A stretch of DNA of 64,000 nucleotides from assembly GCA_002894665.1 (NCBI GenBank), contig NCRB01000005.1:1-64000 (forward strand), in the 5' to 3' direction. The position numbers and the translations under genes are program-made. Positions 37,245-49,246 of this stretch are shown piece by piece; the stretch's first letter is position 1, and every line of letters begins with the position of its first letter. A model generated the notes under the pieces. That model saw only the letters and a program-made list of their open reading frames with translations, made no database searches and had not been told where the DNA came from. The stretch is from Salinivenus iranica (GTDB lineage: Bacteria > Bacteroidota > Rhodothermia > Rhodothermales > Salinibacteraceae).

Positions 37245-38657
37245 ATGTCTTCCTCCGGTACGCTCATTGCCTCCATCTCCGGCATCCGTGGCATCGTAGG
37301 GGACGGCCTCGACCCCTCAGTGTTGGTGCGGTACGCCGGCGCCTATGGCACGTGGTGCCGCGAGCGCGCCCAGGCCCTGGGGCGGCGGCCCGCCGTCGTT
37401 GTTGGGCGGGACGCACGGACCACGGGCGACGCCTGCGCCCAGATCGTGGCGGGCACGCTGCGCGGCATGGGGTGCGACGTACTCGACGTGGGCCCAGCGC
37501 CGACGCCCACCGTCGAGATGGGGATTCTGTTCGAGAAGGCCATCGGAGGGATCGTGCTCTCGGCCTCCCACAACCCGGAGGAGTGGAACGCCCTGAAGCT
37601 GCTCAACGAGTCGGGCGAATTCCTGACGCCGGAGCAGGGACAGGCGGTGATCGACCGGGCCGAGGCCGGCACCGCCGCGCCGGTCCGTCACGACGAGATG
37701 GGAACGTACGCGACGAAAAGCGTCATCGGCCCCCACATCGACGCCATCCTGGGGCTCGACCTGATTGACCCGCACCGGATTGCCCGTCAGAACTTCACGG
37801 TCGCCGTGGACGGGGTCAACTCGGTCGGCGGGGAGGCCCTGCCGCGCCTCCTCCATCGCCTGGGCGTGGCCGAGGAGAACATCCATTGCCTGAACTGCGA
37901 ACCGACCGGTCGCTTTGCCCACCCGGCCGAGCCCCGCCCCGCCCACCTCACGGAACTCGCCGCAACCGTGCCCGAGGTGGGGGCCGACCTGGGACTGGCG
38001 GTGGACCCCGACGCCGACCGCCTCGCCCTGGTGGACGACGAGGGGACCTTCATTCTCGAGGAGCTCACACAGGTGCTGGCGGCCGACTTCGTGTGGGGCC
38101 ACCGATCCGGCCCGTTCGTTACCAATCTGTCCTCCTCCCGCGCCATCGACGACGTCGCGGCCCGCCACGGCCAACCCGTCCACCGCTCCGCCGTCGGCGA
38201 AATCAATGTGGTCCAGCGCATGAAGGCGGTCGACGCCGTGCTGGGGGGCGAGGGCAACGGCGGCGTCATTCTGCCCGACCTCCACTACGGCCGCGACGCC
38301 CTCGTGGGCACCGCCCTCCTCCTCCAACACCTCGCCGAAACGGGACGCCCCCTCAGCGCCCTGCACGCCGACCTCCCGCAGTACGCGATGGCAAAGGACC
38401 AGCTGCCCCTCCCCGACCAGTCGCCGGACCGCCTGCTAACTGCACTGGCCGAACAGTACGCGGACGCGGACACCTCCACCATCGACGGCCTCAAGATTAG
38501 CTTCTCCGACTCCTGGGTTCACGTGCGCCCCTCCAACACCGAGCCCATCCTCCGCGTCTACACCGAGGCGCCCACCGACGCCGACGCGCAGGCCCTCGCC
38601 GATCGCTTCAAGGACGAGCTCCAGGCCCTGCTCGAGTCGCTCGACACCCCGGCGTAG
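37245..38657 (+). CDS. phosphohexomutase, phosphoglucosamine/phosphomannomutase type
   Basis: Interconverts sugar 1- and 6-phosphates, probably glucosamine or mannose phosphate for cell-envelope precursors. The ATG at 37245 gives 470 residues. Visible are the entry ISGIRGIVGDGL, the phosphoserine loop SASHNPEEWN, the metal-binding DPDADR and the sugar-specificity loop GEGNGGV. The phosphate-binding RPSNTEPILR is at the end. The GEGNGG loop resembles archaeal-type GlmM/PMM rather than the GEESGG of the second mutase at the window end, so the two probably have different substrates. The PYP-partner gene starts 133 bp downstream. Confidence 0.9.
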   Translation: MSSSGTLIASISGIRGIVGDGLDPSVLVRYAGAYGTWCRERAQALGRRPAVVVGRDARTTGDACAQIVAGTLRGMGCDVLDVGPAPTPTVEMGILFEKAIGGIVLSASHNPEEWNALKLLNESGEFLTPEQGQAVIDRAEAGTAAPVRHDEMGTYATKSVIGPHIDAILGLDLIDPHRIARQNFTVAVDGVNSVGGEALPRLLHRLGVAEENIHCLNCEPTGRFAHPAEPRPAHLTELAATVPEVGADLGLAVDPDADRLALVDDEGTFILEELTQVLAADFVWGHRSGPFVTNLSSSRAIDDVAARHGQPVHRSAVGEINVVQRMKAVDAVLGGEGNGGVILPDLHYGRDALVGTALLLQHLAETGRPLSALHADLPQYAMAKDQLPLPDQSPDRLLTALAEQYADADTSTIDGLKISFSDSWVHVRPSNTEPILRVYTEAPTDADAQALADRFKDELQALLESLDTPA

Positions 38658-38744: not shown

Positions 38745-38790
38745 GTTTGCTCAACCCAATGTGAGGGTTGCCACCCACCCTCTCCCTGCG

Positions 38791-39828
38791 ATGACTGAGT
38801 CCCCCGACCGGCCCGACGACTCCTGGTACCAGGACCAATGGGAGGACCTCATGGACCTCCTGTCGGTGTCGGAGCCGCAGGCGGTCGTGCCCCGGATGCG
38901 AACCCTGCAAACGGCACTCTCGCACTCTAACTTCAGTCGCTTTGAGGACGCCCTGCAGGCGATGAAGAGCATGGAGGCCCAGCTGGACGACCTCTACACC
39001 GAAAAAGCCTCCACCGCCCGGGCCGCCGCGGAGGAGGACGAACACGACCCGGATACGTACGAGCAGCTTCAGTTCCTCCTGGCCCGCGAGGACAAGCTGC
39101 AGCGGGCCCTCGGCGTACGCTCGCCCGATGCCGTCGTAGAGATGGTGGAAGGCCTGACCGACCAACTGGATGTGCTGTACGCCGAACGCGACGCCGACGC
39201 CCCCCCGTCCCCGGACGCCTTCCTCGACGGTTCTAACTCCCAATCTGAGCGGACGCAGGCGGAACTGGACGCCTCGGACCCCGACGCCGTTCTTGCGATG
39301 GTCCGCCGCCTTTCCGAACAGCTCGATGCGCTGTCTGCCGACCGAGAACAGCTGGCCGCGCACGGGATCGACGACCTCGACCATGCGCTCGAGCTGATCG
39401 ACCGTGTGGAGGACCAACTGGTGGATCTGTACGCCGAGCGCCGTCGTCACACGGTGGACGACCCGCTGCTCCCACCTCACACGCTCCACCGCCTCGACGA
39501 AATGGACGACGACGCCCTTGATGCCGTGCCGGCGGGCGCCCTCCGTGTGGACGACGACGGCATCATTCAACGCGCCAACCGCGCGGCCCTTCAGTGGCCC
39601 GGCTTCTCGGCCGATCGCACCGACGCCCTGGCCGGCCGCCCATTCGACGACCGCGCCGCGCCCGGATCCGATACCGCTCTGTTCCGCCGCTCCCCCGAGG
39701 ACGACGCCCCCGCCACCACCTGCTTCTTGTACACCTACGCAGGAGCGGACACTACCACGACCCTGCTTGTTCAACTGTACCACCCCCAGGATGCGTCCGG
39801 CGACTGGATTCTGTTTCGGCCGACGTAG
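38791..39828 (+). CDS. repeat/coiled-coil protein with chromophore-less PYP-like domain
   Basis: A 345-residue protein, start placed at the ATG at 38791 (a GTG at 38761 would add ten residues). About residues 45-218 hold four helical repeats of a 29-residue unit centred on QLDxLYAE(R/K), namely QLDDLYTEK, QLDVLYAER, QLDALSADR and QLVDLYAER. Residues 237-345 align along their whole length with the PYP encoded next door: LDAVPAGALRVDDDGIIQ against LNAVSFGIIRIDDDGVVQ, and GDWILFRP against NNWILVQK. The chromophore cysteine is replaced (APG292 for APC101) and the chromophore Glu is absent. It cannot be a normal PYP; a partner or output protein is inferred. Confidence 0.85.
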   Translation: MTESPDRPDDSWYQDQWEDLMDLLSVSEPQAVVPRMRTLQTALSHSNFSRFEDALQAMKSMEAQLDDLYTEKASTARAAAEEDEHDPDTYEQLQFLLAREDKLQRALGVRSPDAVVEMVEGLTDQLDVLYAERDADAPPSPDAFLDGSNSQSERTQAELDASDPDAVLAMVRRLSEQLDALSADREQLAAHGIDDLDHALELIDRVEDQLVDLYAERRRHTVDDPLLPPHTLHRLDEMDDDALDAVPAGALRVDDDGIIQRANRAALQWPGFSADRTDALAGRPFDDRAAPGSDTALFRRSPEDDAPATTCFLYTYAGADTTTTLLVQLYHPQDASGDWILFRPT

Positions 39829-39875: not shown

Positions 39876-40346
39876 GTGTCTGAGAACGACGCACAGCATA
39901 CGCCCGACGACGCCTCGGTCCTCGACTCGGATCCGGCGGAGTCGTCTGAGGAGCCCGCAGATGGCCTTTCCGCGGACGATCTGCAGTTTGAGGACGACGC
40001 TCTCGGCGAGAAGCTCCGGCACGTCCCCGAAGAGGAACTCAATGCCGTGTCGTTTGGCATCATTCGGATTGATGACGACGGGGTCGTGCAGTTTTTCAAC
40101 GACTATGAGTCCAAACTGAGCGGCGTCCCCCCGGAGGAAGCCATCGACCGCAACTTCTTTACGCAGGTGGCCCCGTGTACGAACAACCGCCTGTTTTGGG
40201 GCCGCTTTAAGCGAGGGGTGCGGCGGGGCGACCTCGACGAGGTATTCACCTACACGTACACCTACAAGATGCGACCGACGCTCGTGGACGTGCACCTGTA
40301 TCGCGACGAGGCGGGCAACAATTGGATTCTGGTCCAGAAGTATTAA
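39876..40346 (+). CDS. pyp: photoactive yellow protein
   Basis: A blue-light photoreceptor of the PAS fold that binds p-coumaric acid by a thioester. The start is the GTG at 39876 (no in-frame ATG), giving 156 residues: an acidic N-terminal extension of about 31 residues, then the 125-residue PYP domain. Chromophore Cys101 (Cys69 of Halorhodospira halophila PYP) lies in NFFTQVAPCTNN, and Glu78 (Glu46) is kept. Tyr42 is replaced by Phe74, Thr50 by Ser82 and Arg52 by Val84. In Halorhodospira the Y42F mutant is blue-shifted with an extra intermediate form. The gene lies 47 bp after the PYP-like gene and 74 bp before the ligase gene. Confidence 0.95.
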   Translation: MSENDAQHTPDDASVLDSDPAESSEEPADGLSADDLQFEDDALGEKLRHVPEEELNAVSFGIIRIDDDGVVQFFNDYESKLSGVPPEEAIDRNFFTQVAPCTNNRLFWGRFKRGVRRGDLDEVFTYTYTYKMRPTLVDVHLYRDEAGNNWILVQKY

Positions 40347-40397
40347 CGTGTCGGTGTCGCTCGCGCACGGTGCGCCGCGCACGGTACTTTTTTCTGT

Positions 40398-40406
40398 GTG
40401 ATAACT
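40398..40406 (+). promoter_or_regulatory. GTGATAACT motif before the ligase gene
   Basis: Second copy of the nine-base motif found at 38736-38744, here 14 bp before the ATG at 40421 and followed by a CTCCTTTTTT pyrimidine run. Its position within a 74-bp gap suggests an internal promoter or regulatory site. Confidence 0.3.
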
Positions 40407-40420
40407 CTCCTTTTTTCTCA

Positions 40421-41971
40421 ATGCGGATGAACGGCACCTCGGACTCGTCGGAGTCGACCGGCCTTCCCCAGACGTCGGATGCCCCCGACGCCGTGGCGGC
40501 CGTCCGAGCGGCCCTGGATCAGTGCCCCCCGCCCACGTCCACACCGGCCCCCGCCTCGCCCAACCCCTGGCACGACCTGCTCCACGACCGCCTCTGCGAC
40601 GAGCCGCTCCCGGCCCTCATCGCGGACGACACCATCACCCCGGCCGCCTCCCTCTGGACGGGCTCCCGCCTCTGGGTCGATACGTTCCGCGCACACGACC
40701 TGCAGCCGGGCGACCGGCTCGTCCTCAGCCTTCCGCCCTCCACAGCCTTCGTTCAGATCCTCGTCGCCGCGCTCTGGGAGCAGCTGACGGTGGCGTTCGC
40801 CCCGCCGGACACGGACGCCGAGTCTCTTCTCTCTCCGCTCGACGCCCGCGCCGCGGTGACGCCCGACGACGGGCCCCACGCCTGGGCCTCCGACGAGCTC
40901 GCCGGTCCGCGCTCCACCCCCGAGGCCCTGCGGTCCCCCCGAGAAGAACCGACCCCTGACGTCCGCTTCCTGCTCCGGACCTCCGGCACCCACCACGGAC
41001 GCTGGGTCGCCCTCTCGGACCGCAACGTGCTCTCCGTGCTGGCCAGTCACCTGCCGCACCTCGCGCTCCGCAACGCCCGGGTGCTCTCCGTTCTTCCCTG
41101 GACCCACGCCTTCGGGCTGGTCCTCGACCTCCTGCCCGCCCTTCTGGCAGACGCCGAACTGATCCGGGACCCCGACGGGGGACGCAACCCTGACGGACTG
41201 GTGTCCCTGCGGGACGCCTGGGGCACCACGCACCTGTCGGCCGTCCCCCTCACCATCCAGCGCCTGCTCGACCACTCGGCGGGCCGGGCCCTCGTGCGCG
41301 ACCTGCAGGGCGGGATTGTAGGCGGCGCGCCGGTATCTGCCCCCCTCGCCACCACCCTCACCGACACCGCACTGCGGGCCGGGTACGGACAAACGGAAGC
41401 CTCGCCCGGCATTGCCCTTGGGGCGCGCGGCGAGTGGGGCCCCCACTACCTGGGACACCCGGTCGGCTGCAACGTCACGATTGCGGACGACGGAGAACTG
41501 CTGTTTGACGGCCCAAATGCCTGCGTGGGCTACTGGCGCGACGGCCGCCTCGAACGCCTCGACCCGACCCGCACGGTCCATACGGGGGATCTGGTGGAGC
41601 ACGGTGACGACGGCCTTATCTTTCGGGGGCGGAAGGACGCGTCCTTCAAACTCTCCAACGGCCGCTTCGTCCCGGCCGGCGTCCTGGAGTCGACCCTCAA
41701 GACGACGTACGCCACCCTTCGCGATGCGCTGCTCTTCACCCCCGACGGCGACAACGTCGCAGTCGCCCTCTGTCCCCAGTCGCCCACCGCCGAGGTGCCC
41801 GACCTGGACGCCCTCCGAGCAACCCTTGGCTCGCTTGGCAGCCGCCTCGTCTGGCACACCACGGTGGCCCCGGAGGCCTGGCAGACGCAGTCCAAGGGCA
41901 CCGTCGACCGCCGCGCGATGAGTGCCTCTTTGTCGGAGGCCTACCGCTCCAAAACTCCTTCGTCGCCCTAG
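40421..41971 (+). CDS. AMP-forming ligase, candidate p-coumarate:CoA ligase
   Basis: A 516-residue member of the adenylate-forming family, start at the ATG at 40421 (a second ATG at 40427). The phosphate loop is atypical (TSGTHHGRW at 187-195, without the usual Gly-x-Pro-Lys). The other core motifs are clear: YGQTE (322-326), TGD (388-390), GRKD (403-406) and the catalytic Lys492 in SKGTVDRR. A variable ~45-residue Pro/Ser-rich N-terminus precedes the domain. In other PYP-bearing bacteria a p-coumarate:CoA ligase activates the chromophore. Position between pyp and an ammonia-lyase supports that role here, though substrate specificity cannot be read from sequence. Confidence 0.82.
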   Translation: MRMNGTSDSSESTGLPQTSDAPDAVAAVRAALDQCPPPTSTPAPASPNPWHDLLHDRLCDEPLPALIADDTITPAASLWTGSRLWVDTFRAHDLQPGDRLVLSLPPSTAFVQILVAALWEQLTVAFAPPDTDAESLLSPLDARAAVTPDDGPHAWASDELAGPRSTPEALRSPREEPTPDVRFLLRTSGTHHGRWVALSDRNVLSVLASHLPHLALRNARVLSVLPWTHAFGLVLDLLPALLADAELIRDPDGGRNPDGLVSLRDAWGTTHLSAVPLTIQRLLDHSAGRALVRDLQGGIVGGAPVSAPLATTLTDTALRAGYGQTEASPGIALGARGEWGPHYLGHPVGCNVTIADDGELLFDGPNACVGYWRDGRLERLDPTRTVHTGDLVEHGDDGLIFRGRKDASFKLSNGRFVPAGVLESTLKTTYATLRDALLFTPDGDNVAVALCPQSPTAEVPDLDALRATLGSLGSRLVWHTTVAPEAWQTQSKGTVDRRAMSASLSEAYRSKTPSSP

Positions 41972-41980
41972 GTCGCCCTC

Positions 41981-43483
41981 ATGTCTGCCTCGCCCCTTCT
42001 CCTCGGCCCCGACGCCTCCCTCACCTGCGAAGCGGTCGACCGGGCCGCCCGCCGCCCAGCCCCGAAGGGGTCGCTCACGACCGCCGCGGACGAGGCCCTT
42101 CCGCGCTCGCGCGACGCCCTCGCCGACGTACACGAGCGTGGGGACGAGATCTACGGCCTCACGACCGGGTTCGGCCCCCTCCTCGACCACTCGGCCGCGG
42201 AGGACGCCTCCGCCCAGAGCGACCAGCTGCTCGCCCACCTGAGCACGGGGAGCGGGGAGTGGGCGGCGCCCGACATCGTGCGGGCGATGGTCCTGTCGCG
42301 CCTGCAGTCGCTGGCGCAGGGCCACTCCGGAATTCGTCCCTCGACCGTCCGGTCCCTCCTTCGTCTGCTGAACGCGGCGCCGCCGCCCGCCGTCCCCGAA
42401 ATCGGATCGCTCGGGGCAAGCGGCGACCTGACCCCGCTGGCCCACGCGGCCCGGGCGTACACCGGCCAGGGGCACATGCTGGCAGAGAACGGAACGCTCG
42501 TGGACGCCGCGACCGCCCTGCAGGACGCCGATCTCACGCCCGTCTCGCTCGACGCCCGCGACGCGCTTGCGTTCGTGAACGGCACCGCGTTTATGACGGG
42601 GACCGCCGCGCTGGCCCTCGCCCGGGGGCGCCGCCTGCTGGAGCGGGCCGAGGCCCTCACCGGATGGGCCTACCGCCTGCTCGGGTGCTCGCTGGAGGCC
42701 CTCGCACCGCGTCTCCACGCCGCCCGCGGCCACGACGGCCAGCAGGCAAGCGCCGCCGCCATCCGGGCGGAGGCAACCCGCCATGGGGCCGCCGAGCAGG
42801 ACGATCGCCCGCTCCAGGAAGTGTACTCCCTTCGCTGCGCCCCGCAGGTCCTCGGCGCCGCCCGAGATCAGTTTCGATACGCCCGGAATCAAGTTGAAAC
42901 AGAGCTGAACGGGGTGACCGACAACCCCGTGATCGATCCCGAGGGGCCCGCGGCCCTGCACGGCGGCAACTTTCAGGGGCAGCAGATCGCCTTTGCCGCC
43001 GATGCGCTGAACGAAGCCCTCACCCAGATCGGAGTGCTGGCCGAGCGTCAACTCGATGTCCTGCTCTCGCCCGACCAGAACGGAGGGGCGCCGCCCCTCC
43101 TCGCCTGGACGCCGGGCCCCACCAGCGGCCTCGCCGGCGCGCAGCTTACCGCCACGGCCCTGGTGGCCGAGCTCCGACAAAACGCACAAATGGCGGCCAC
43201 CTCGTCGATCCCGACCAACAACGACAATCAGGACGTCGTGTCGATGGGGGCCCTGGCCGCCCGCACGGCCCACGAACAAACCGAGCGCCTCGCCCCAATC
43301 CTGGCCGTCCTCGGCCTCAGCCTCGCCCAGCTCACCCACCTGCGGGCCGCCAACCGCGCCGACGGCCCCGCGCCTCCGCCCCCCGACTGGATGCCCTCCG
43401 TAGAGCCGATCGTGGAGGACCGGCCCCTCCGCGCCGAGATCAACGCCCTCGCCCAAGAGTGGCGCCTCCCCGCCCCCTCATAG
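41981..43483 (+). CDS. aromatic amino-acid ammonia-lyase, probable tyrosine ammonia-lyase
   Basis: Removes ammonia from an aromatic amino acid with the self-made MIO cofactor; for tyrosine the product is p-coumarate. The 500-residue protein has the MIO triad Ala146-Ser147-Gly148 in GSLGASGDLTPLAH, catalytic Tyr58 in YGLTTGFG and the family segment YSLRCAPQVLG. The selectivity pair is His86-Leu87 (LLAHLSTG), the combination found in tyrosine ammonia-lyases; histidine lyases have Ser-His and phenylalanine lyases Phe-Leu at this place. The ATG is nine bases after the ligase stop. No other histidine-degradation gene is nearby, arguing against HutH. Confidence 0.88.
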   Translation: MSASPLLLGPDASLTCEAVDRAARRPAPKGSLTTAADEALPRSRDALADVHERGDEIYGLTTGFGPLLDHSAAEDASAQSDQLLAHLSTGSGEWAAPDIVRAMVLSRLQSLAQGHSGIRPSTVRSLLRLLNAAPPPAVPEIGSLGASGDLTPLAHAARAYTGQGHMLAENGTLVDAATALQDADLTPVSLDARDALAFVNGTAFMTGTAALALARGRRLLERAEALTGWAYRLLGCSLEALAPRLHAARGHDGQQASAAAIRAEATRHGAAEQDDRPLQEVYSLRCAPQVLGAARDQFRYARNQVETELNGVTDNPVIDPEGPAALHGGNFQGQQIAFAADALNEALTQIGVLAERQLDVLLSPDQNGGAPPLLAWTPGPTSGLAGAQLTATALVAELRQNAQMAATSSIPTNNDNQDVVSMGALAARTAHEQTERLAPILAVLGLSLAQLTHLRAANRADGPAPPPPDWMPSVEPIVEDRPLRAEINALAQEWRLPAPS

Positions 43484-43497
43484 CCCAACCATCCGAC

Positions 43498-43998
43498 ATG
43501 CCATCGCCCACATCTCGTCCCGCCCCCGGCCCGAACCAGGAATCCGTGTGGGACTACCCGCGCCCGCCGGCCCTGAAGCCAGAGGAACGGCGCATCCGGG
43601 TCGTCTTCAACGATACGGTCCTCGCCGATACGACCGAGGCCCTGCGCGTGCTCGAAACGAGCCACCCGCCGGTCTACTACCTCCCGCCCGCCGACGTGGC
43701 GATGGAGCACCTTCAGCGGGAGTCGCGGACCTCAATGTGCGAGTTCAAGGGGCGCGCCGTGTACTACACGGCCACGGTCGGGGACCGCTCGGCCCGGCAG
43801 GCCGCATGGGGCTACCCAAACCCCACCGATCGCTATGCGGCCCTCGCGGATCACCTCGCCTTCTATCCCAGCAAAATGGACGCGTGCTTTGTGGGCGAGG
43901 AGCAGGCTCGCGCTCAGGAGGGCGACTTCTACGGCGGCTGGATTACCGACGACATCGTGGGCCCGTTTAAGGGCGGGGCGGGCACGATCGGCTGGTGA
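43498..43998 (+). CDS. DUF427 domain protein
   Basis: A 166-residue protein from the ATG at 43498, 14 bp after the lyase stop. It shows the DUF427 pattern: ESVWDYPRPP near the start, VVFNDTVLADTTEALRVLETSHPPVYYLP in the middle, then CEFKGRAVYYT and YPSKMDACFVGEE. The family is widespread, often one or two beta-barrel-like domains, and has no assigned activity. Its tight placement at the end of the PYP gene row suggests co-transcription with the photoreceptor genes. It converges with the trans-sulfuration gene, 15 bp away. Confidence 0.85.
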   Translation: MPSPTSRPAPGPNQESVWDYPRPPALKPEERRIRVVFNDTVLADTTEALRVLETSHPPVYYLPPADVAMEHLQRESRTSMCEFKGRAVYYTATVGDRSARQAAWGYPNPTDRYAALADHLAFYPSKMDACFVGEEQARAQEGDFYGGWITDDIVGPFKGGAGTIGW

Positions 43999-46921: not shown

Positions 46922-47926
46922 ATGGAGTCTACCGACCCCGCCGACACGCCGCTCCCCCCCAGCCTCCAAGCCCTCCTCCACGAGATCGTGGACTACGCCG
47001 GTCTCTTCCCGCCGGCCGACCTGTCGCTCCGTCGGGCCCTCCAGAACTACGCCGACTACCGAGAAGAATCGGAGGCGTGGATGCTGTCCCGCTTCGTGCT
47101 CCCGGTCCGCCGCCTGCCGGACCTCAGCCCCTTCCACCGCTCCTTCTCTACCGGTGCCCCCTACCAGTTTTCGGTCCTCGGCACGGGGGGCGACACCCCG
47201 GACACCTTCCTCGATGCGCTCGGGCGCGACCTGGACGTGATCGACGCCTTCGACGAGGAATATGGCGGGCGGGCCACAGTGGACCTCATGGAGGTCCCCC
47301 TCCCCACGTCGCTCATCGGGAGTTCCCAGGCGGATCTCCGCTCCTTCTTCGAAAGCGTACACCAGCGACTGGTGGCCGACGGCACCGCGCAGCTCGACTT
47401 TTTCTTCGAGGTCTCGACCGAATCGGACACGATTGAAGGGCTCCGCCCCCTCTGCGCCGCCGTCGCCGGGCACAACAGCCGACAGGCCGTGCCCGCCCGT
47501 TCCACGCTCGGCCTGAAGCTCCGGTGCGGCGGAGCCGAGCCCAGCGACATTCCCAGCGTCGAACAGGTGGCCGCCCTCATCGTGGCCTGCCGCGACGCCG
47601 GCGTCTCGTTCAAGGCCACGGCGGGCCTTCACCACCCCCTCCGCCACTACGACGACGGATTCGACACCGAGATGCACGGCTTCCTCAACATCTTCGGGGC
47701 CGCCGCCCTCGCCGCGGAGCACGGGCTCGACGCCGACGACCTCATTCCCGTCCTGCGCGACGAGGACGCGACCAACTTTCAGTTCCTGAAGGAGCGTTTT
47801 GCCTGGCGGAACGCCGCCGTCCCCCTCGACGGCATCGAACACGCCCGAAACGCCCTCGCCCTCTCCTTCGGCAGCTGCAGCTTCGAGGAGCCGATCGACC
47901 ATCTGCGCGACCTCGACCTGCTGTAG
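46922..47926 (+). CDS. conserved-looking protein of unknown function upstream of fahA
   Basis: A 334-residue soluble acidic protein with no signal peptide. The pattern of alternating strands and helices, with conserved-looking patches STLGLKLRCGG and VSFKATAGLHHPLRH, recalls a TIM-barrel-like enzyme. A Lys in FKATAGLHHP could be functional. I recognise no named family. Its stop is 42 bp before the fumarylacetoacetase start on the same strand, so a role in tyrosine or homogentisate breakdown is plausible, but this is inference from position alone. Confidence 0.75.
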   Translation: MESTDPADTPLPPSLQALLHEIVDYAGLFPPADLSLRRALQNYADYREESEAWMLSRFVLPVRRLPDLSPFHRSFSTGAPYQFSVLGTGGDTPDTFLDALGRDLDVIDAFDEEYGGRATVDLMEVPLPTSLIGSSQADLRSFFESVHQRLVADGTAQLDFFFEVSTESDTIEGLRPLCAAVAGHNSRQAVPARSTLGLKLRCGGAEPSDIPSVEQVAALIVACRDAGVSFKATAGLHHPLRHYDDGFDTEMHGFLNIFGAAALAAEHGLDADDLIPVLRDEDATNFQFLKERFAWRNAAVPLDGIEHARNALALSFGSCSFEEPIDHLRDLDLL

Positions 47927-47968: not shown

Positions 47969-49246
47969 ATGGCTGACTCGTCCCTCACCTCCTTCCTCGA
48001 CGGGGCCGACCAGAGCCCCTTCCCCATCCAGAACCTGCCGTACGGCGTGTTCGTGCCGCCGGCCGCCTCGTCGCCCCGCGTAGGCGTCGCCATTGGCGAC
48101 CACGTGCTCGACCTCGCCGTGCTCCAGGAAGAAGGCCACTTCGAGCACCCCGACGTGCAGGCCGCCGAGCCGTTTTCGGAGGCCACGCTCAATACCTTCA
48201 TGGGCCTCGGGCAGGACGCCTGGTCGGCCGTGCGCGAGCGGCTGCAAACCCTCCTCCGCGCCGACACCGCCGATCTGCGAGACGACGCCGCCCTCCGCGA
48301 GCGGGCCCTCCACGAGCGCGCGTCCGTCACAATGCGGATGCCCGTCGACGTGGGTGACTACACCGACTTTTATTCCTCGGAGCACCACGCCCGCAACGTG
48401 GGCTCGATGTTTCGCGACCCCGAAAATGCCCTGAAACCGAACTGGAAGCACCTGCCGGTGGGCTACCACGGACGCGCCAGCAGCGTCATCCTGAGCGGCG
48501 AGGACGTGCGACGCCCCTGCGGCCAGACGCGCCCCGACGCCGACCAGCCCCCGGTGTACGGCCCCTCCCAGCTGCTCGACTTTGAGCTCGAGGTGGGCTT
48601 CTTCGTCGGGCCCGGCAACCCGCGCGAGACGCCCATCCCCATCGAGGAGACGCCGCAGCACATCTTCGGCTTCTGCCTCGTCAACGACTGGAGTGCTCGC
48701 GACATTCAGGGCTGGGAGTACGAGCCGCTCGGGCCGTTCCTCGGCAAGAGCTTCGCCACCTCTATCTCGCCGTGGATCGTGCCGACGGCGGCCCTGCTGC
48801 CCTTCCGCGTATCGGGGCCGGAGCAGGACCCCGCCCCGCTCGACTACCTGCAGCAGGACGCGGACTGGACCTTCGACGTGGCCCTGGACGTGGGCCTCCA
48901 GACGCCCTCGATGGACGCCCCGCACACCGTCTGCGAAACCAACTTCCGCCACATGTACTGGACCGTGTGCCAGCAGCTGGCCCACCACACCGTCAACGGC
49001 TGCAACGTGCGCCCCGGCGACCTCATGGCCTCCGGCACCATCAGCGGCCCCACCAAGGACAGCTACGGAAGCATGCTGGAGCTGTCGTGGCGCGGGCAGG
49101 AGCCCGTGGAGCTCCCCGGGGGCGAGACGCGCTCGTTCCTGGAGGACGGCGACCACGTGGTGATGCGCGGACACGCGGACGGCGACGACTATCAGATCGG
49201 GTTCGGATCGGTCGAAGGCACCGTCCGTCCCGCCTCCTGTCAGTAA
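47969..49246 (+). CDS. fahA: fumarylacetoacetase
   Basis: Hydrolyses fumarylacetoacetate to fumarate and acetoacetate, the last step of tyrosine degradation. The 425-residue length matches the family. An N-terminal SH3-like domain (about 15-120) is followed by the catalytic domain. Visible are DYTDFYSSEHHA with metal and catalytic residues, GYHGRASSV, the metal-binding FELEVGFFVG and LVNDWSARDIQGWEY. FLGKSFATSISPWIV and the late DLMASGTISGP also match. The other genes of homogentisate breakdown are not in the window. Confidence 0.95.
   Translation: MADSSLTSFLDGADQSPFPIQNLPYGVFVPPAASSPRVGVAIGDHVLDLAVLQEEGHFEHPDVQAAEPFSEATLNTFMGLGQDAWSAVRERLQTLLRADTADLRDDAALRERALHERASVTMRMPVDVGDYTDFYSSEHHARNVGSMFRDPENALKPNWKHLPVGYHGRASSVILSGEDVRRPCGQTRPDADQPPVYGPSQLLDFELEVGFFVGPGNPRETPIPIEETPQHIFGFCLVNDWSARDIQGWEYEPLGPFLGKSFATSISPWIVPTAALLPFRVSGPEQDPAPLDYLQQDADWTFDVALDVGLQTPSMDAPHTVCETNFRHMYWTVCQQLAHHTVNGCNVRPGDLMASGTISGPTKDSYGSMLELSWRGQEPVELPGGETRSFLEDGDHVVMRGHADGDDYQIGFGSVEGTVRPASCQ

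Follow-up and report, generated by a model that had tools for sequence, protein, structure and literature searches.

A photoactive yellow protein gene row in Salinivenus with a predicted chromophore pathway and a candidate partner protein carrying a pyp-associated repeat

How does a photoactive yellow protein (PYP) come by its chromophore, and to what does it pass its signal? Both questions are raised by a segment of the 64,000-nucleotide stretch of Salinivenus iranica DNA analyzed here (contig NCRB01000005.1; hereafter the window), in which the genes for PYP, an AMP-forming CoA ligase, an aromatic amino-acid lyase and a DUF427 protein form one row, all on the plus strand, with gaps of 74, 9 and 14 bp. 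A preliminary description of this DNA had listed this four-gene row and suggested that its lyase and ligase could build and load the PYP chromophore. Open reading frame (ORF) coordinates and family scans bear out the row, and genomics, active-site residues and a natural ligase–lyase fusion strongly back the predicted pathway. The cluster begins one gene before pyp, 47 bp upstream, with a gene for a protein that we term PYPL, composed of helical repeats (here called LY) and a PYP-like domain. We read the segment as a blue-light-sensor operon, PYPL–pyp–ligase–lyase–DUF427, and assign a probability of roughly 0.8 to the chromophore pathway and LY/PYPL as its associated component taken jointly. 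The features are as follows.

37245–38657, plus strand: presumably a phosphoglucosamine/phosphomannomutase-like gene (named from its sequence), a syntenic marker upstream of the cluster whose position beside the ligase is kept in S. ruber-type genomes
38761–39828, plus strand: PYPL, helical LY-repeat protein with a C-terminal PYP-like domain (GTG start at 38761 or ATG start at 38791; TIGR02373, 2.6e-5)
39064–39189, plus strand: best-conserved LY repeat unit, 42 amino acids (aa), common to small proteins adjoining pyp in other phyla (by alignment; whole-genome match 4.6e-19)
39876–40346, plus strand: pyp, photoactive yellow protein with Cys69, Glu46 and a natural Y42F (GTG start; TIGR02373, 8.9e-31)
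40421–41971, plus strand: PYP-associated AMP-forming CoA ligase, predicted p-coumarate:CoA ligase (ATG start; PF00501, 1.2e-20)
41981–43483, plus strand: MIO (4-methylideneimidazole-5-one) aromatic amino-acid lyase, predicted tyrosine ammonia-lyase, with His86-Leu87 and the ASG triad (Lyase_aromatic, 3.9e-134)
43498–43998, plus strand: DUF427 protein, a conserved neighbor (PF04248, 4.7e-35)

Lyase, ligase and pyp very probably constitute a chromophore pathway. In the route we propose, the lyase would deaminate tyrosine to p-coumarate, the ligase would activate p-coumarate to p-coumaroyl-CoA, and the thioester would be handed from p-coumaroyl-CoA to Cys69 of PYP; genomic support for these steps is good. 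The pyp product keeps the chromophore cysteine (Cys69, within VAPCT) and Glu46 and carries Phe in place of Tyr at position 42, a substitution found in ~9% of PYP homologues according to the accessible part of a survey (PMC9664959). Its score against TIGR02373 (106.6 bits) stays below the cut-off of 143, as does every score in the 244 genomes of the class, that of S. ruber included, and the cut-off thus shuts out this clade. On plasmids, 13 distant PYP records were found.

Among 41 genomes searched, PYP was found in 19, and a ligase orthologue in the same 19 and in none of the other 22 (in genome G022 the ligase is a mere fragment at the end of a contig; G and L numbers denote genomes and loci). 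A lyase of the tyrosine ammonia-lyase (TAL) type, with at least 59% identity, accompanied PYP in 15 of the 19 genomes and was likewise absent from the 22 others. The row pyp–ligase–lyase–DUF427 is complete in nine of the PYP-bearing genomes (G000, G001, G002, G008, G009, G010, G014, G016 and G018), which argues that it is not a product of chance; contig ends interrupt the rows of G021 and G022, and in G015 the lyase lies 1.26 Mb from pyp. The nearest genome, that of Salinivenus lutea (G001), shares 99% identity in PYP and 98% in the lyase; the source of the window is a near relative of this species.

In Salinibacter ruber DSM 13855 (G003), as in G004 and G011, a block of mutase, LY ORF, ligase and DUF427 is kept, and pyp and the lyase lie elsewhere. 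Match starts in G003 (pyp at 2,756,922, ligase at 2,941,902, lyase at 925,471) place the ligase ~185 kb and the lyase ~1.7 Mb from pyp, by the shorter way round. The window had been considered as possibly the S. ruber locus itself; it is Salinivenus DNA, and the S. ruber orthologues are scattered. A 2008 report by Memmi is said to describe the S. ruber pyp as not flanked by its biosynthetic genes. That statement, also made in the preliminary description, agrees with the S. ruber DSM 13855 genome, since the biosynthetic orthologues are present yet dispersed, far from pyp. The operon points to the chromophore-gene orthologues of S. ruber, and native holo-PYP could be rebuilt with Salinibacter-type genes alone. 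Where pyp and lyase have moved elsewhere, the DUF427 gene is still found next to the ligase; the window DUF427 had no match in 34 pyp loci from outside the Salinibacteraceae. It is a conserved neighbor in the row, and a role in the chromophore pathway finds no support.

What kind of lyase is this? The MIO-forming Ala-Ser-Gly triad is present (GSLGASGDLTPLAH) and conserved across the aligned lyase family. The previously noted selectivity pair, His86-Leu87, aligns with the His-Leu of chain 2o6y, which we take to be the Rhodobacter sphaeroides TAL; chain 2o78, presumably a mutant, has Phe in the histidine column. All 16 aligned members of the window lyase group within the order share His-Leu (the truncated G022 copy fell outside the residue alignment), and NQD/NQN-type motifs stand where HutH paralogues have QEDHVSM; Ser-His together with QEDHVSM marks 12 of 12 aligned HutH rows, one of them a duplicate. 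Against solved structures, the lyase scored 286 bits with 2o6y, 269 with tyrosine aminomutase and at most 217 with histidine ammonia-lyases (HALs), an order that the S. ruber HutH paralogue reverses (410 bits with HAL versus 220 with 2o6y). The 12 HutH rows came together as a single clade in a tree (100/100), in which the window lyase grouped with 20 other pyp-linked rows (98/96); the pyp-linked lyases of L150, L175, L162, L120, L121, L152, L156 and L165 fell outside its group, and the truncated L160 lyase was omitted. In its own genome the window lyase is the sole PF00221 gene, and a urocanase search that was positive in control genomes found none there; a histidine-degradation route through this lyase is therefore not to be expected. 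Neither Ser-His and QEDHVSM nor a genomic urocanase, the marks of a HAL, was thus found here, and we rejected a HAL identity on the combined evidence of the residues, the tree, the solved relatives and the urocanase that was not found. The lyase is a predicted tyrosine ammonia-lyase.

The ligase offers less by way of family membership. Its AMP-binding fold is plain (PF00501, 1.2e-20) and motifs A3–A8 can be aligned; its best solved relative, a feruloyl-CoA synthetase, reaches only 1e-7, and it meets no NCBIfam equivalog. AMP-forming ligases usually have Gly-Lys, with the catalytic lysine, at motif A10; here the order at A10 is Lys-Gly, both in the window ligase and in every family row with A10 covered. 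Given the weak solved relative, the missing equivalog and this A10, assignment by sequence alone fails, and the earlier placement of the ligase in the family that makes p-coumaroyl-CoA cannot be drawn from its sequence. The predicted p-coumarate specificity comes instead from genomic association, namely gene row, co-occurrence and fusion to a lyase. In L118 (G206), a natural ligase–lyase fusion of 1023 aa (L118:5807-8878, minus strand; AMP-binding ligase at residues 46-312, aromatic lyase at 486-930) lies beside pyp and PYPL and may give a one-protein supply of p-coumaroyl-CoA. The fusion counts as support independent of the co-occurrence, as do ligase relatives (1e-10 or better), which lie within the pyp flank in 10 of the 34 loci from other groups. 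Relatives of the ligase and/or the lyase adjoin pyp in other phyla, too, and a lyase lies within the flank in 15 of the 34 loci outside the order.

The second question concerns the gene before pyp. From six seed units, five of them taken from the 27 LY-positive loci outside the Salinibacteraceae, we built a 42-aa model of the LY repeat and ran it on 12,598 ORFs drawn from the window and from 98 loci. It matched only PYPL, pyp-adjoining ORFs, an LY–PYP fusion in L146 and the S. ruber-type LY ORF beside the ligase. LY is present in 27 of 34 non-Salinibacteraceae pyp loci (weakly in L158, L174 and L175), in groups including Kapaibacteria, Ignavibacteria, Leptospiraceae, Planctomycetota, Gemmatimonadaceae and Deltaproteobacteria. 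Within the 244 genomes of the class, the model matched 21, each of which also has a strong PYP, as 24 genomes of the class do; in G194 the matches (L177, G194:C51:24000-29324) sit at the end of a contig and apart from the known pyp locus. Across 29 whole genomes there were 24 LY matches in 23 genomes, of which 23 matches fall within the LY ORF of a pyp locus and one, in G251, does not, with at most one match per genome in 28 genomes and two in the one with two pyp genes. In a hold-out of 12 pyp genes from 10 further genomes outside the model, some of them related to two seed genomes, an adjacent LY ORF was recovered at E < 1e-8 for 11; the remaining one, in L187 near a contig end, reached 0.027. 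This whole-genome specificity rules out a generic coiled coil as the cause of the match.

Differences by codon position within the repeat (0.33, 0.24, 0.65) indicate that LY is under protein-level selection. Family searches gave a best Pfam E of 0.005, a best NCBIfam E of 0.0003 (for a model matched by 2/13) and no PDB match below E 0.24; LY is not accounted for by any Pfam, NCBIfam or PDB family. For the small LY protein of L144, AlphaFold predicts a pair of helices and a tail of two strands (pLDDT 74, pTM 0.34). In a Phycisphaerales locus (L173:5188-7395), two pyp genes each have their own LY gene directly upstream.

In the loci of the class that we analyzed, PYP-like domains are of two kinds: 37 retain Cys69, and another 27 belong to long proteins, the PYPLs, in which helical repeats precede the PYP domain. 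Position 69 is Ser, Gly, Ala or Asp in all 27 PYPL copies; all lack Tyr42 and all but one lack Glu46, the window copy reading Gly/Ala/Ala at the three chromophore positions. A Pfam scan of the window PYPL found no domain. Its AlphaFold model shows helices followed by a PAS fold, for which PYP structures make up all of the best PDB matches (target TM ~0.78); with a pTM of 0.37, only the PAS domain of this model is usable. In most cases PYPL lies directly upstream of pyp; G015 and G012 hold copies with no pyp beside them, and G008 and G010 a second copy downstream. Second pyp loci (L073, L076 and L047) combine tandem pyp genes with a very long PYPL of 910 to 1225 aa and up to 17 repeat matches.

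Two natural fusions, LY–PYP in L146 and PYPL itself, suggest that LY and PYP domains act together, and LY/PYPL probably serves PYP as a functional partner in some way, perhaps through physical contact. A more specific proposal, which we make tentatively, is that LY/PYPL relays the signal of PYP: light would alter PYP, and the signal would then run through PYPL, where the LY repeats and the PYP domain without chromophore residues would serve as the docking site. The LY repeat could accordingly be, at somewhat less than even odds, the dedicated signaling partner of one PYP branch, in the form of a small helical hairpin protein adjoining pyp in several phyla. By the same reading, and held just as guardedly, the Salinibacteraceae may have expanded LY into long PYPL scaffolds whose chromophore-less PYP cap pairs with the photoactive PYP.

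Several findings weigh against the operon as we read it, and for the enzymes they bear on two other explanations. The 19 PYP genomes stem from five genera of one family, so that co-occurrence is phylogenetically clustered and they are not independent events. Four of them, G005, G006, G007 (Salinibacter altiplanensis, 99% complete; L066, L062 and L082) and G012 (83% complete), lack a TAL-type lyase although PYP and ligase are there, which argues that the lyase is not strictly needed and that p-coumarate can have another source. The 14 readable pyp-neighboring lyases outside the order comprise eight with His-Leu, two with Gln-Leu and four with Tyr-Leu, and the Lys-Gly of the ligase A10 is a further difficulty. 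No NCBIfam equivalog cut-off is passed by the window lyase, and its top-scoring NCBIfam models are HutH ones, as they would be if it were a histidine ammonia-lyase in a chance neighborhood. Its scores of 382 and 371 bits, however, fall well under the HutH cut-offs of 524 and 539, it has His-Leu and NQD rather than Ser-His and QED, urocanase was not found in the genome, and the true HutH, a separate clade, coexists with the TAL-type lyase in S. ruber; we regard this explanation as very improbable indeed. Alternatively, lyase and ligase might make p-coumaroyl-CoA, beta-tyrosine or some other aromatic compound for use in a pigment or secondary metabolite, the link to pyp being secondary. The lyase matches the tyrosine 2,3-aminomutase (322.6 bits) and FlxA TAL (281 bits, cut-off 700) models, both below cut-off; aminomutases come second among its solved relatives, and its sequence may be compatible with aminomutase activity. 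The missed FlxA cut-off is equally compatible with TAL activity, because that model was built for flexirubin TALs. Confinement of the ligase to PYP-bearing genomes among the 41 searched, together with the recurrence of ligase and lyase beside pyp in other phyla, makes this explanation distinctly improbable.

For LY/PYPL, the adverse findings are its absence from seven of the 34 non-Salinibacteraceae loci (L150, L153, L160, L162, L167, L170 and L171), three genomes of the class with a strong PYP and no LY (G148, G151 and G164), and the separation of pyp from PYPL in S. ruber-type genomes, where only an LY ORF of ~100 aa stands beside the ligase. Nor was LY found within 1.5 kb of pyp in any of five alphaproteobacterial loci of clade A type, a label inferred from scores above the TIGR02373 cut-off; within the same flanks it was absent from three multi-domain loci and from 28 with weak generic PAS matches. 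The S. ruber-type arrangement, in which LY remains with the ligase and away from pyp, would suit a chaperone or scaffold that helps load the chromophore onto apo-PYP instead of relaying a signal, as would the direct adjacency of LY/PYPL to pyp elsewhere, and a dead PYP domain could keep PYP close to the enzymes. Yet LY also accompanies pyp at loci whose fetched flanks yielded no ligase and no lyase (L134, L139, L151 and L154, for example), and some PYPLs, with up to 17 repeat matches, adjoin second pyp genes away from the enzymes; we consider a loading role unlikely, if the most serious of the alternatives. That PYPL is a degenerate pyp duplicate fused to a generic coiled coil, of no consequence to PYP, would accord with the loss of Cys69 from every copy. 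The LY model, however, behaves unlike one for a generic coiled coil, nearly all its matches lying at a pyp locus, the repeat is under protein-level selection and the PYP fold is retained in PYPL, and we deem such a relic improbable.

Farther along the window, a fumarylacetoacetase gene (tyrosine breakdown; 47969-49246) lies close to the operon, preceded by a gene for a 334-aa protein without a Pfam match (46922-47926). Directly downstream of pyp in several groups, a family of ~150-aa proteins was observed:

L152:10327-10776, downstream-family member
L155:599-2269, downstream-family member
L156:10355-10774, downstream-family member
L158:2134-3663, downstream-family member
L165:10395-10886, downstream-family member
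L167:10368-10862, downstream-family member
L170:1507-2043, downstream-family member
L171:10352-10819, downstream-family member

In L158 the member forms one portion of a longer protein that also bears a CheW domain (Pfam, 1.3e-8) and, lying directly downstream of pyp, hints at a chemotaxis output in some lineages. CheW binding is reported, in the part of the paper available, for Ppr, a PYP-containing kinase of Rhodocista centenaria (PMC2993699).

PYP is among the best-studied photoreceptors, and an LY family that tracks pyp across phyla makes the question of its partner concretely testable. Papers of 2022, 2025 and 2026 describe the PYP signaling partner or chain, in their accessible portions, as largely unknown (PMC9664959, PMC12826048, PMC13250908). 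The available text of two PYP surveys, supplements excluded, makes no mention of an LY-repeat gene (PMC12826048, PMC9664959), and the same partial text counts a TAL gene in only seven of 113 predicted operons. By title or abstract opening, we found no paper on an LY/PYPL partner, in a literature of which most subscription papers were out of reach and from which absence is hence not established. If our reading is right, LY would represent a previously undescribed family of photoreceptor partners and would be a candidate for the first, still missing link in the PYP signaling chain.

How does the locus compare with known systems? In MCP-PYP and PYP-phytochrome proteins, PYP is tied to its output by fusion, according to the portion of the review at hand (PMC12826048); PYPL differs in that its PYP-like domain lacks the chromophore residues and the window copy has no Pfam domain. 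The PYP-binding protein of Rhodobacter capsulatus is, by a title cited in the accessible part of PMC9664959, another proposed PYP partner, a likeness drawn from the title alone. With R. sphaeroides 2o6y, its best PDB match, the window lyase has the His-Leu pair and the MIO triad in common, although the match amounts to only ~286 bits, 2o6y was deposited as a putative histidine ammonia-lyase and the substrate of the window lyase is a predicted one. Salinibacter ruber, of the same GTDB genus and with its PYP known as SRU_2224 (PMC6508672), has pyp, ligase and TAL-type lyase as the window does, but the three genes are scattered and its PYP keeps Tyr42 where the window PYP has Phe. The closest counterpart is the pyp–pCL–TAL operon of Halorhodospira halophila (PMC12826048, in the part available). 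Compared by description alone, the window differs in the LY/PYPL gene before pyp, the DUF427 gene after the lyase and the Lys-Gly A10 motif of its ligase family, and the two share the same three functions in the same order.

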